Assembly (NCBI RefSeq): GCF_039649665.1
Contig: NZ_JBDJAW010000003.1
Coordinates: 186,001 to 250,000, forward strand
Direction: 5' to 3'
Length of the DNA stretch: 64,000 bases
Source of the DNA: Microbispora sp. ZYX-F-249
GTDB taxonomy: Bacteria; Actinomycetota; Actinomycetes; Streptosporangiales; Streptosporangiaceae
Shown here piece by piece: positions 14,451-18,724 of this stretch (within the stretch, counting starts at the first letter, position 1; the number at the start of each line of letters is the position of its first letter). The translations under genes were made by a program, and so were the position numbers. The notes under the pieces are model-generated. The model made no database searches and was not told the origin of the DNA. It was given only the letters and a program-made list of their open reading frames with translations.

Positions 14451-14906
14451 CTACTCGGGGATGCTCGACTTGACCGGCCCGGCGAGGTCGACCAGCACCG
14501 CCCCGGGCTGGTGGTCCTTCCCGATCGTCACCTCGACGTACGCCACGCGGTTGGTGGACGTGAACAGCGCCGGTCGGCGCGGGTCCTGGAACCAGCCGAC
14601 GCCGTTGATGTCGGCGACCTCCGCCGTCGGCTCCATCGCGGCCGGCCGGGGCACGCCGCAGCGCAGGGCGATCTGGCCGTCGCCCCAGACCGCGACGTAC
14701 GGCGAGGGGGGTTCGGAGTCGGTCCGGTCGAGCCCGTCGAGCGTCTTCGGCAGCGCGGCGTCGAGCGTGCGGCAGGCCGCGGCCGCCTCGCCGGCCGGCG
14801 TGGGCGGCTCCACGTGGACGGTGGACGAGCAGCCCGCGAGCAGGGCGAGCGCCGCCACGATCGCGACTCCCGGCGTCGTGCCCACGGGCCCCTTCGCCTT
14901 GCGCAT
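14451..14906 (-). CDS. DUF3515-type lipoprotein
   Basis: A 151-residue secreted lipoprotein. The signal peptide ends in the lipobox LLAGC with the lipid-bearing Cys at residue 26. ATG 14906 has GGGGAG upstream, so the longer frame from 14951 is not used. The mature part (CRTLDAALPKTLDGL, ALRCGVPRP, WFQDP, VAYVEVTIGKDHQP) matches the DUF3515 pattern found beside ddl and thiL in actinobacteria. Its function is not known. It converges with ddl, with no bases between the stop codons. Confidence 0.85.
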   Translation of the reverse strand: MRKAKGPVGTTPGVAIVAALALLAGCSSTVHVEPPTPAGEAAAACRTLDAALPKTLDGLDRTDSEPPSPYVAVWGDGQIALRCGVPRPAAMEPTAEVADINGVGWFQDPRRPALFTSTNRVAYVEVTIGKDHQPGAVLVDLAGPVKSSIPE

Positions 14907-14929
14907 CGTCTCCCCGGCTCGTGTCCCGC

Positions 14930-15163
14930 TCAGATGTGGACGATCGGACACGTCAGTGTACGGGTGATGCCCTGCACGCCCTGGATCTGGGCGACCACGA
15001 GCTTGCCCAGCTCGTCCACGTTGTTGGCCTGGGCACGGACGATCACGTCGTAGGGGCCCGTGACATCCTCGGCCTGTGTGACCCCGGGGATGGAGGAGAT
15101 CTCCTCCGCCACGTTGGCGGCCCTGCCGACCTCGGTCTGGATAAGGATGTAGGCCTGCACCAT
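14930..15163 (-). CDS. Stand-alone Lrp/AsnC ligand-binding domain protein
   Basis: A 77-residue protein that is only the RAM/AsnC effector domain: the family features are VQAYILIQTEVGRA, the turn GPYDVIVRAQA and the final strand TRTLTCPIVHI. No DNA-binding domain is encoded, so it cannot act alone as a classical Lrp regulator. Such stand-alone domains may bind amino acids and assemble with full-length Lrp proteins. It is divergent from thiL and ends 23 bases before the DUF3515 start. Confidence 0.9.
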   Translation of the reverse strand: MVQAYILIQTEVGRAANVAEEISSIPGVTQAEDVTGPYDVIVRAQANNVDELGKLVVAQIQGVQGITRTLTCPIVHI

Positions 15164-15228
15164 GACGCCCTCCGGGTAGAGATCAGTGCCGGAGCGTAAC
15201 CGTACCTCGAATGCACTAGGGGTGTGCC

Positions 15229-16179
15229 ATCACAGTCGGAGATCTCGGCGAATTCGGAGTAATTCAGCGGATATCAGGACGCCTTCCGCGGACCGCGGCC
15301 GTACTGCTGGGCCCCGGCGACGACGCCGCGGTCCTCAAGGCCCCCGACGGGCGGGTTGTCGTGAGCACGGATCTACTGATCGAGGGTAGGCACTTCCGCC
15401 GCGACTGGTCGAGCGGGTACGACATCGGCCGTAAGGCCGCCGCACAGAACCTTTCCGACATCGTTGCCATGGGAGCCGATCCCACCGCCCTCGTGGTCGG
15501 TCTGGGGCTGCCCGCGGACGTCCCCGCCGACTGGCTGGACGCGCTGACCGACGGCTTCCGCGACGAGTGCGACCTGGTGGGGGCGACCGTGGCGGGGGGC
15601 GACATCGCCCGGTCGGAGACCGTCGTGCTCGGGGTGACCGCGCTCGGCGACCTCGGCGGCAGGTCGCCGGTGACCCGGTCGGGCGCGCGCCCCGGCGACG
15701 TGGTCGCGGTGGCGGGCCGCCTGGGATACGCCGCGGCCGGCCTCGCCCTGCTCGGGGCGGGCGTGACCGGCGGACCTCCGGAGTTGGTGGCCCTGCTGGA
15801 GGCGCACCGGCGTCCCCTGCCGCCGTACCCCTGCGGCCCGCGGGCCGCGCTGCTCGGCGCGACGGCGATGCTCGACGTCAGCGACGGCCTGCTGCAGGAC
15901 CTCGGGCACGTCGCCGACGCGAGCGGCGTGGCCGTCGCGCTGGACGCCGCCGCGCTGCCCGTGCCCGAGACGCTGACCGCGGCGGCGCGCCATCTGGGTG
16001 CGGACCCGCTGGAGTGGGTGCTGACCGGCGGCGACGATCACGCGCTGGCCGCGACGTTCCCCTCCGAGGTACGGCTGCCGCCCGAATGGACGCCTGCGGG
16101 AGTGGTGACCGAGGGCCGCGGAGTGCGGGTCGACGGACAGACCCGGACCGAAGGGGGATGGGACCACTTCCGTGGATGA
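15229..16179 (+). CDS. thiL: Thiamine-monophosphate kinase, apparent AUC start
   Basis: ThiL phosphorylates thiamine monophosphate to the pyrophosphate cofactor. The conserved N-terminus TVGDLGEFGVIQRISGRLP and the Mg/ATP motif GPGDDAAV (residues 29-36) are encoded in frame from ATC 15229, just after an in-frame TAG at 15217-15219. No ATG, GTG or TTG occurs in this frame until GTG 15361, which would remove the essential GDD motif. AGGGG at 15218-15222 lies 6 bases before ATC, a good ribosome-binding distance. The later motifs STDLLIEGRHF, AAAQNLSDIVAMGADP and MLDVSDGLLQDL are intact. The 316-residue length is normal. Confidence 0.9.
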   Translation: MTVGDLGEFGVIQRISGRLPRTAAVLLGPGDDAAVLKAPDGRVVVSTDLLIEGRHFRRDWSSGYDIGRKAAAQNLSDIVAMGADPTALVVGLGLPADVPADWLDALTDGFRDECDLVGATVAGGDIARSETVVLGVTALGDLGGRSPVTRSGARPGDVVAVAGRLGYAAAGLALLGAGVTGGPPELVALLEAHRRPLPPYPCGPRAALLGATAMLDVSDGLLQDLGHVADASGVAVALDAAALPVPETLTAAARHLGADPLEWVLTGGDDHALAATFPSEVRLPPEWTPAGVVTEGRGVRVDGQTRTEGGWDHFRG

Positions 16180-16249: not shown

Positions 16250-17704
16250 ATGGGCCGTCACACGGCAGGACGTAAGGCACGAGAGGGACAGCCGTCCCCG
16301 GCGCAGGACGGCTCTCCGGAGAGCACCGCCGACCCTGACCATCTGGCCTTCCGTCCTCCGGCGACGCCGACCGGCGCCCCGCCGGCCCCTTCCGGGATCG
16401 GCCACCCCGGGCCGCGGCAGAGCGGCGGGGACGTGCCGTGGCCGGTGCCGCCCGCGGACACGCCCGGGAATGGTGTGCCGTGGCCCGCGCCGCCCTCGCA
16501 GGCGACCGGTGGCGGCGTGCCGTGGCCCGCGCCGCCCTCGGACGCGACGACCCGGATGTTCACCGCCCTGTCGCCCGAGAGGCTGGAGTCCGAGAGCCTG
16601 GCGTCGCCCGAGCGTCCGGTGACGACCGGGCGTCCGGTGACGCCCGGGGGCGCCGGGGGCCGCGGCCTTCCCGCGCCGGGCCGGGACGACCTCGCGAAGC
16701 AGCCGAGACGCATGCGGAGGCTGGCGCTCGTGTCGGGGCTGTCCGTGCTGCTCGCCGTGGGCGTCACGACCGGCGGCGCGCGGCTGATCGCCGGGCGGAC
16801 CTCCCTGACCATGGAGCAGCCGACGACGGCCTGCCCGGTCTCCGAGGACTGCACCGCTGCGGGAGCGCCCGGCTCCGGCCAGGCCCTCGGCGAGACGCGT
16901 GCCCCGGGCGATCCGGCCGGCGACCCGGTCCAGAACGGCCGGGACCAGCCGGGACGGGAGGACGCCGGCAGAACAGGTGCCGGACAGGACGATGCCCGGA
17001 GCACCGGGAAGGACGACACCGGGAAGAACGACACCGGGAAGAACGCCGCCAAGGACGACGGCCCCAAGAACGACACGGGTAAGGACACCGCGCGGGGCGG
17101 CTCGGCGGATCCGCGGGCCACACCGGTCTCCACGGCGACCTCCGGAGGCCCGGATCGCGACCACGCGTCCGCCCGTACGCGCACCCCGTCCACCGCCGCT
17201 CCGCGCGCCTCGTCCACCGCCGCTCCGCGGGTGGGCGATGCTCCCGCCGCCGTCACGGCGGCCGGAGACAACACGGCGGCCACCGTGCCCGGCGACAGCG
17301 GGAACGGCGAGGACACGGCGGGCACGGACACGGCGGGCACGGACACGGCGCAGACCGAGTCCGCCCTCGCCGGTGACGGTGCGGCGGTGCGGGTGCGCTT
17401 CACGATGACCCGGCATGACGAGAGCGGATACACGGCGCGGCTCGCCGTACGCAACGAGGGACCTGCCCTGCCGGCCTGGACCATCCGGCTGGCCGTCGGC
17501 GGGCAGGTGACGGCGGTCGAGGGGGCGGACTGGAAGCAGCGGGGAGACACGCTGACTCTGAGCTCGCAGACCGCACTGGACGAGGGCGGCGCGCTGACGC
17601 TGACCGTCCACGCCGACGGCGCGTCCGCCGCGCCCGCCGACTGCGTGCTGTCCGAGGGCAGGTGTGAGGTGACCGGCCCCGGCCGGTCCCGGCGCCACGC
17701 CTGA
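16250..17704 (+). CDS. Anchored Pro/Thr-rich protein with CBM2-like C-terminal domain
   Basis: A 484-residue protein I do not recognise as a known gene. A Pro-rich cytosolic N-terminus with repeated VPWPxPP motifs near residues 60-100 leads to one membrane segment near 160-182 (LALVSGLSVLLAVGVTTGGA). A long Asp/Lys/Thr-rich low-complexity stretch follows to about residue 375. The final 100 residues (VRVRFTMTRHDESGYTARLA, then PAWTIRLAVGG) have the strand pattern of a family-2 cellulose-binding-like domain. It probably displays a glycan-binding domain outside the cell. ATG 16250 follows CAGGAAGGA. Confidence 0.68.
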   Translation: MGRHTAGRKAREGQPSPAQDGSPESTADPDHLAFRPPATPTGAPPAPSGIGHPGPRQSGGDVPWPVPPADTPGNGVPWPAPPSQATGGGVPWPAPPSDATTRMFTALSPERLESESLASPERPVTTGRPVTPGGAGGRGLPAPGRDDLAKQPRRMRRLALVSGLSVLLAVGVTTGGARLIAGRTSLTMEQPTTACPVSEDCTAAGAPGSGQALGETRAPGDPAGDPVQNGRDQPGREDAGRTGAGQDDARSTGKDDTGKNDTGKNAAKDDGPKNDTGKDTARGGSADPRATPVSTATSGGPDRDHASARTRTPSTAAPRASSTAAPRVGDAPAAVTAAGDNTAATVPGDSGNGEDTAGTDTAGTDTAQTESALAGDGAAVRVRFTMTRHDESGYTARLAVRNEGPALPAWTIRLAVGGQVTAVEGADWKQRGDTLTLSSQTALDEGGALTLTVHADGASAAPADCVLSEGRCEVTGPGRSRRHA

Positions 17705-17926
17705 GCCGCCCTCATCGGGTCCGCGGGTCGCGGCGTCGCGGTGATCGGCCGACCTGCCGCCATCCGACCCTCCGGCTGGGCACGGCTTTGGTCGGCGTGG
17801 CCGTTAGGGCGACCTGCCGGTCTCCGGATCGTCCGGCTGTGCGGGGGTGGCGCCGGCCGGTCCTCGCGGCCCGTCCGGGATGGGGCGTTTGCGGGGAGGC
17901 GGGGGGTGCTTTGGTTGGATTGGCCC

Positions 17927-18724
<798 letters not shown>

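Follow-up and report, generated by a model that had tools for sequence, protein, structure and literature searches.

Near-cognate start codons in bacteria

To our knowledge, few bacterial genes start with a codon other than NUG, and infC is the textbook case. The infC start codon is AUU in E. coli and AUA in S. aureus (PMC9410913, PMC13009471), and ATC in Streptomyces (PMC5472188). Streptomyces sigR is the closest precedent for the locus described here. It starts at GTC behind the ribosome-binding site AGGAGGTG and is repressed by IF3. The SigR level rises with canonical codons or in infC fidelity mutants and falls with extra IF3, and a longer SigR isoform is made from an upstream ATG (PMC5472188). 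That study finds the GTC start conserved across Streptomyces, with no evidence of it in other actinobacterial genera, and states that annotation misplaces the starts of both sigR and infC (PMC5472188).

Other cases are more distant. S. aureus uses AUU in cvfC1 and AUA in ccpN and citZ; near-cognate reporters reach approximately 10–30% of AUG, the cvfC1 and ccpN starts are conserved between species, and the AUA start of citZ is reported from strains of a single S. aureus lineage only (PMC13009471). E. coli pcnB starts at AUU and is described as nonessential (PMC9410913, PMC4245954). In a selected library of M. smegmatis, ATT accounted for 9.8% and ATC for 0.2% of the leadered starts, and ATC with a Shine-Dalgarno (SD) sequence initiates weakly, at a low level above background (PMC4633059).

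Near-cognate starts with a strong SD are already known for infC, pcnB, sigR, cvfC1, ccpN, and citZ. The present work concerns thiL of Microbispora, a soil actinobacterium. ThiL (thiamine-monophosphate kinase) carries out the last step in the synthesis of thiamine pyrophosphate (TPP), the vitamin B1 coenzyme. This thiL gene very likely begins at an AUC codon. It is unusual in that the target is a coenzyme-synthesis enzyme, and in the breadth of its conservation. We recognized no paper treating an AUC start of thiL among the matches listed from the open-licence PMC literature.

Organization of the thiL locus

The window, a stretch of 64,000 nucleotides (G000, contig C3, 186001–250000) from a genome whose nearest named relatives are Microbispora, contains thiL and the features listed in Table 1. 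An in-frame TAG closes any longer reading frame, and this stop is shared with other Microbispora and with Microtetraspora glauca. It is followed by GGG TGT GCC and then by ATC ACA GTC GGA GAT CTC GGC GAA TTC, and the peptide encoded after the ATC at 15229 is ITVGDLGEFGVIQRISGRLP, followed further on by GPGDDAAV; the frame ends at TGA (16177–16179). The initial annotation had suggested a start at this AUC. Its grounds can all be read directly from the DNA: after the TAG (15217–15219) no ATG, GTG, or TTG occurs in frame before GTG 15361, the N-terminus and GPGDDAAV are encoded between these two points, and AGGGG (15218–15222) lies with exactly 6 bases before the ATC (15229–15231). Thus, no canonical start in the window can yield the conserved N-terminus.

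Table 1. Features at the 5' end of thiL and its surroundings (window coordinates).
Feature	Position	Strand	Evidence or remark
thiL (thiamine-monophosphate kinase) coding sequence from the proposed AUC	15229..16179	+	316 codons + stop
ATC (AUC), very likely start codon of thiL	15229..15231	+	ATC in 35/36 relatives; 83 ATC + 1 ATT/157 aligned genomes
In-frame TAG, closes any longer thiL frame	15217..15219	+	read directly
Shine-Dalgarno-like AGGGGTG of thiL	15218..15224	+	read directly
In-frame ATG 18 nt 5' of ATC, followed by CAC TAG	15211..15213	+	read directly
Codons 2–10 of thiL, synonymous sites nearly invariant	15232..15258	+	synonymous difference 0.108 vs 0.39–0.45 elsewhere
GPGDDAAV motif, 5' of the first canonical start	15310..15333	+	conserved in 36-row alignment; aligns with GDD of PDB ThiL
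GTG, earliest canonical start codon in frame; rejected as thiL start	15361..15363	+	ORF listing, codon rates, model bits
Candidate -10-like TACCTC (TACCCT in many relatives)	15203..15208	+	by eye only; promoter scan without match
Divergent short Lrp/AsnC-like gene, 77 aa	14930..15163	-	translates without internal stop

The frame is thiL. Read from the AUC, the frame scores 275.6 bits with TIGR01379 and 436.5 bits with NF004351, both over the cut-off, and it is the only one of five TIGR01379 matches in the genome to exceed the cut-off. The frame carries the N-terminal GEFG and GDD motifs of ThiL. Its alignment with PDB ThiL chains, for example 1vqv and 3c9r, begins at residue 4 and includes the GDD.

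No same-strand gene lies directly 5' of thiL, because the neighboring short gene is divergent; its region 14951–15163 matches LysM/AsnC models weakly, with scores that stay under the cut-offs. On the 3' side, a thiD gene (HMP-P kinase; TIGR00097, 315.9 bits) is found at 17924–18721 on the forward strand, approximately 1.7 kb from thiL, and a single long ORF (16250–17704) occupies the space between the two. A promoter and terminator scan of 15100–15300 returned nothing, including no sigma-70-like site. An RNA switch or structure at the thiL start was also considered and rejected: an Rfam scan of 14900–15700 gave no match up to E = 1, and for 13 thiL-start sequences the RNAalifold covariation term was -0.07, which supports no structure.

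Conservation of the start codon

The initial annotation held that conservation of the ATC in relatives would support an AUC start, and such conservation was found. A search for related loci gave 36, of which 35, from nine genera (Microbispora, Planotetraspora, Streptosporangium, Planomonospora, Planobispora, Microtetraspora, Spongiactinospora, Thermocatellispora, and Nonomuraea), have ATC at the site; the remaining locus, from a Paractinoplanes, has GTG. A wider sample comprised one locus per genome, and 157 of 164 loci could be placed at the start, with seven that were not alignable left out. ATC occupies the site in 83 of these and ATT in one (84 ATC/ATT loci), counts that refer to genomes and not to independent events.

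Family f1 accounts for most of these loci (70 of 94 placed, spanning 35 genera). The other 14 ATC/ATT loci belong to f7 (1), f14 (7), f31 (3), f40 (1), and f41 (2), and in three further loci (one in f12, two in f14) an ATC accompanied by an SD lies a few codons upstream of the site. All ten loci of f18, which we presume from sequence features to be Streptomyces-like, and the sampled f37 and f19 loci have ATG or GTG at the site or at most 2 codons above it. The remaining families read mostly show ATG or GTG within 60 nt of the site.

We also compared the start-site codon with isoleucine codons of the same genes. ATC is present at the start in 36/36 cases (the window plus 35 loci, with the GTG locus L070 left out) versus 18 of 63 Ile codons at positions 2–25, a difference with a Fisher p of 9e-14 that ignores relatedness. 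Relative to Ile codons from position 26 to the end, where 204 of 226 (90%) are ATC, the invariance of the start-site ATC is marginal (p 0.05).

Some members of f1 depart from the common pattern. The single ATT locus (L126/L206; genome G053, f1/g40) has its ATT right after another ATT and is without a canonical in-frame start upstream. In L155 (genome G137, f1/g25), GTT is found at the aligned site behind an open frame without a canonical start; this is possibly another odd thiL start, in a genome that is an incomplete draft. Judged by eye, thiL appears to be leaderless in the f1 genera that have starts such as GTGTCGAGC. This appearance is seen, for example, in L088, L104, and L156, where TACCCT is followed after approximately 7 nt by a GTG that precedes the aligned ATC site by two codons. 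The names Nocardiopsis-like, for the f1 genera of these loci, and Actinomadura-like are likewise presumptions from sequence features.

A tree of ThiL with 66 rows requires at least nine changes of start type, five of them forced by well-supported branches, although labelling the ambiguous rows L115, L318, and L319 (GTG 6–9 nt upstream) as AUC may inflate this number. The number of changes is lower than in any of 500 shuffles. Near-copies (L014, L160, and L072) were dropped beforehand; 26 rows were added, of which 24 were placed (all except L303 and L313), and L212, a second copy from genome G056, was left out. Rows L302, L308, and L310, in which the ATC and its SD lie a few codons upstream of the site, received their AUC label by hand and lie outside the count of 84. 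Either AUC is old and was lost several times, or it was gained several times, a choice that one gene cannot decide.

Shine-Dalgarno region and coding evolution of the N-terminus

Of the 84 ATC/ATT starts, 83 are preceded by an SD-like purine run at a distance of at most 18 nt. The SD is GGAGGTG in 38 of these loci, the window having the weaker AGGGGTG, and the distance between the last RGG and the start is 6 nt in 61. As in sigR and infC, a strong or extended SD precedes a weak codon.

Codons 11–44, which lie ahead of the first canonical start, evolve as protein-coding sequence. Among the 36 loci, they differ at rates of 0.185, 0.084, and 0.466 for the first, second, and third positions, a pattern typical of translated sequence. 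Codons 2–10 behave differently, with a synonymous difference much lower than in the rest of thiL (Table 1). This constraint appears to go with AUC, since it is missing from two admittedly small control sets, one of 12 GTG-start loci (0.445 versus 0.43) and one of 10 ATG-start f18 loci (0.349 versus 0.28). It is weaker when one ATC locus is taken per genus (15 loci; 0.368 versus 0.479–0.575). The third positions of codons 2–12 are A/T-rich as well (0.59 versus 0.10 in the 36 loci, 0.50 versus 0.13 across AUC genera). This second feature is not special to AUC, because the control gene starts are also enriched (0.25 versus 0.08 and 0.17 versus 0.04).

Other possible starts

Four other explanations would place an ordinary codon at the start of ThiL. 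The initial annotation had allowed that a one-base sequencing error turned ATG or GTG into ATC; sequencing or assembly errors do occur, but the argument goes no further, and the explanation is refuted by the relatives that carry the same ATC (35 of 36 from nine genera, and 83 of the 157 aligned genomes). It can be given practically no weight. The same is true of a start at the internal GTG 15361 with an untranslated upstream part. That codon is the first canonical start in frame, but the codon-position rates of codons 11–44 refute it. Moreover, the protein would lose GDLGEFG and GPGDDAAV, which are largely shared by PDB ThiL chains, its NF004351 score would drop from 436.5 to 370.4 bits (66 bits lost), and the first canonical codon falls at differing places in relatives. 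A start at a GTG within the SD (15222 or 15224), followed by a frameshift before or at the ATC, draws on the presence of such a GTG in the SD of many relatives. It is refuted as a general mechanism by L137 (GGAGGTCCTGCCATC), L142 (GGAGGTAAGACATC), L148 (GGAGGTCGGCCATC), and L129/L131 (GGAGGTGTAAGATC), which keep the ATC while the GTG is missing or closed; there is also no conserved slippery run by eye, and we regard this route as extremely improbable.

The in-frame ATG 18 nt upstream would add a six-residue extension and make the ATC an internal isoleucine codon. It is found in 33 of the 84 ATC/ATT loci, in 23 of which no stop separates it from the ATC, and the longer SigR isoform is a published parallel (PMC5472188). 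Against it, a stop intervenes in the other ten of the 33, namely the window and nine more; in 32 of the 84, the frame contains no ATG, GTG, or TTG from the stop to the site; and the extension overlaps the SD, with residues that by eye are not conserved. In the rest of the 84, the nearest canonical start lies within 45 nt in 41 loci and farther off in 11. We therefore consider this ATG very unlikely to be the true start of thiL; it could be used in the 23 loci where it is open, and its product could be a minor isoform in some genera. In six loci (L115, L143, L144, L149, L233, and L234), a GTG lies in frame 6–9 nt upstream, and there the ATC may be internal and not the start.

Proposed mechanism and function

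The reading that we strongly favor is that AUC 15229 is the real start of thiL, that it is inefficient, and that it is probably repressed by IF3, keeping ThiL low; the role of IF3 is inferred from the parallels with infC and sigR. The SD, at its spacing of 6 nt, would place ribosomes at the AUC. The ordinary fMet initiator tRNA, with its CAU anticodon, would initiate in vivo on the mismatched AUC at low efficiency, aided by the SD. IF3 should reject most of these complexes, as at infC and Streptomyces sigR, so that the level of ThiL would be low and would fall further when IF3 is plentiful. On sequence grounds, the AUC looks like a deliberate brake on ThiL production; it may tune TPP synthesis, to the benefit of the TPP supply.

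Initiator tRNA genes of the ordinary type are present. The initiator-arm pattern GGGCTNATAACCC has 19 matches in 10 genomes, 18 with CAT and one with GAT at the anticodon. ARAGORN was run on 11 of these and identified nine as tRNA-Met (CAT), with no tRNA at the GAT match (L300) or at one CAT match (L299). No initiator tRNA with a GAU anticodon was found among the 11 loci checked, a search in which tRNAs with a different arm would escape the pattern. A dedicated AUC-reading initiator tRNA was rejected as a candidate, its sole GAT match being no tRNA.

The infC gene of the same organisms, which the initial annotation had aptly invoked as a precedent, has an ATC start preceded by an SD in all 29 loci read, which come from eleven families of the class and include that of the Microbispora genome itself (G000, contig C14, 11329–11832; L232). 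The set comprised 30 genomes, one of which had no match; one second, partial match was left unread. Since infC has ATC in all 29 loci, initiation at AUC very probably works in these organisms. The two genes share the same codon and a strong SD in the same genomes. They differ in that infC has an obvious feedback and a shorter SD spacing, and in that its AUC is found in all eleven families examined, whereas thiL has AUC/AUU in 84 of 157 aligned genomes.

Like thiL, sigR is actinobacterial and has a near-cognate start behind an SD and an upstream in-frame ATG. Its yield is low and is reduced further by IF3, as predicted for thiL. However, its codon is GTC, its product is a sigma factor and not a coenzyme-synthesis enzyme, and the effect of IF3 was measured for sigR, whereas it is inferred for thiL. 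The S. aureus genes likewise combine a near-cognate start with an extended SD, but they come from Firmicutes, use other codons, and were demonstrated by ribosome profiling and reporters. The product of pcnB is an enzyme, and this gene resembles thiL as a non-regulator enzyme gene with a near-cognate start, in its case AUU.

The AUC might instead be a tolerated fossil that persists by drift, rescued by a strong SD and without any regulation. An SD does accompany the AUC, small amounts of ThiL may suffice, and regulation of thiL is a prediction. On the other hand, a change of one base would give AUU or AUG, either of which would probably be the better initiator; even so, 83 of the 84 loci retain ATC, and the synonymous sites around the AUC are constrained. 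A single C-to-T transition would probably strengthen the start, given the higher share of ATT than of ATC in the M. smegmatis library (PMC4633059). As ATT is found in only one of the 84 loci, the weakness of the start seems to be what is kept. Persistence by drift thus appears unlikely, although it deserves more weight than the alternative starts discussed above.

If the brake on ThiL is real, thiL would allow an effect of IF3 on metabolism to be tested in a clean case, and the sister lineages with GTG or ATG starts offer a natural comparison. More tentatively, infC and thiL could form the core of a set of IF3-controlled AUC-start genes in actinobacteria. The very poor start retained on the final TPP-synthesis enzyme would then make coenzyme supply in these lineages depend on the IF3-to-ribosome ratio and, with it, on initiation capacity and growth state. 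We consider this broader proposal possible but doubtful; were it true, the device would include the nearly invariant first ten codons. On the practical side, start prediction limited to ATG, GTG, and TTG will misplace the thiL start.

Other near-cognate starts in the genome

A screen for near-cognate starts, run on 1278 gene calls in 1.6 Mb of the genome (8.8 Mb in all), gave 11 candidates, of which thiL and one other gene have a convincing SD-ATN site; it did not flag the known positive infC, which lies in the part screened, so its sensitivity is low and this rate is not to be generalized. The screen also flagged a possible CTG start behind ctctaggagagatccc (contig C4, 216143).

A second near-cognate start lies outside the window, on contig C3 at 319109 (L336:19109), where ATT follows caggagATCCCCC. 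An in-frame TGA is located 21 nt upstream, and the first canonical start comes only at +84. Neither Pfam nor NCBIfam gave a match for a 297-aa part of the protein. Of the Microbispora loci, 15 genomes matched and 13 loci were examined, all 13 of which carry the ATT in its context; alignment set the frame in six of them, and the others were located by motif.
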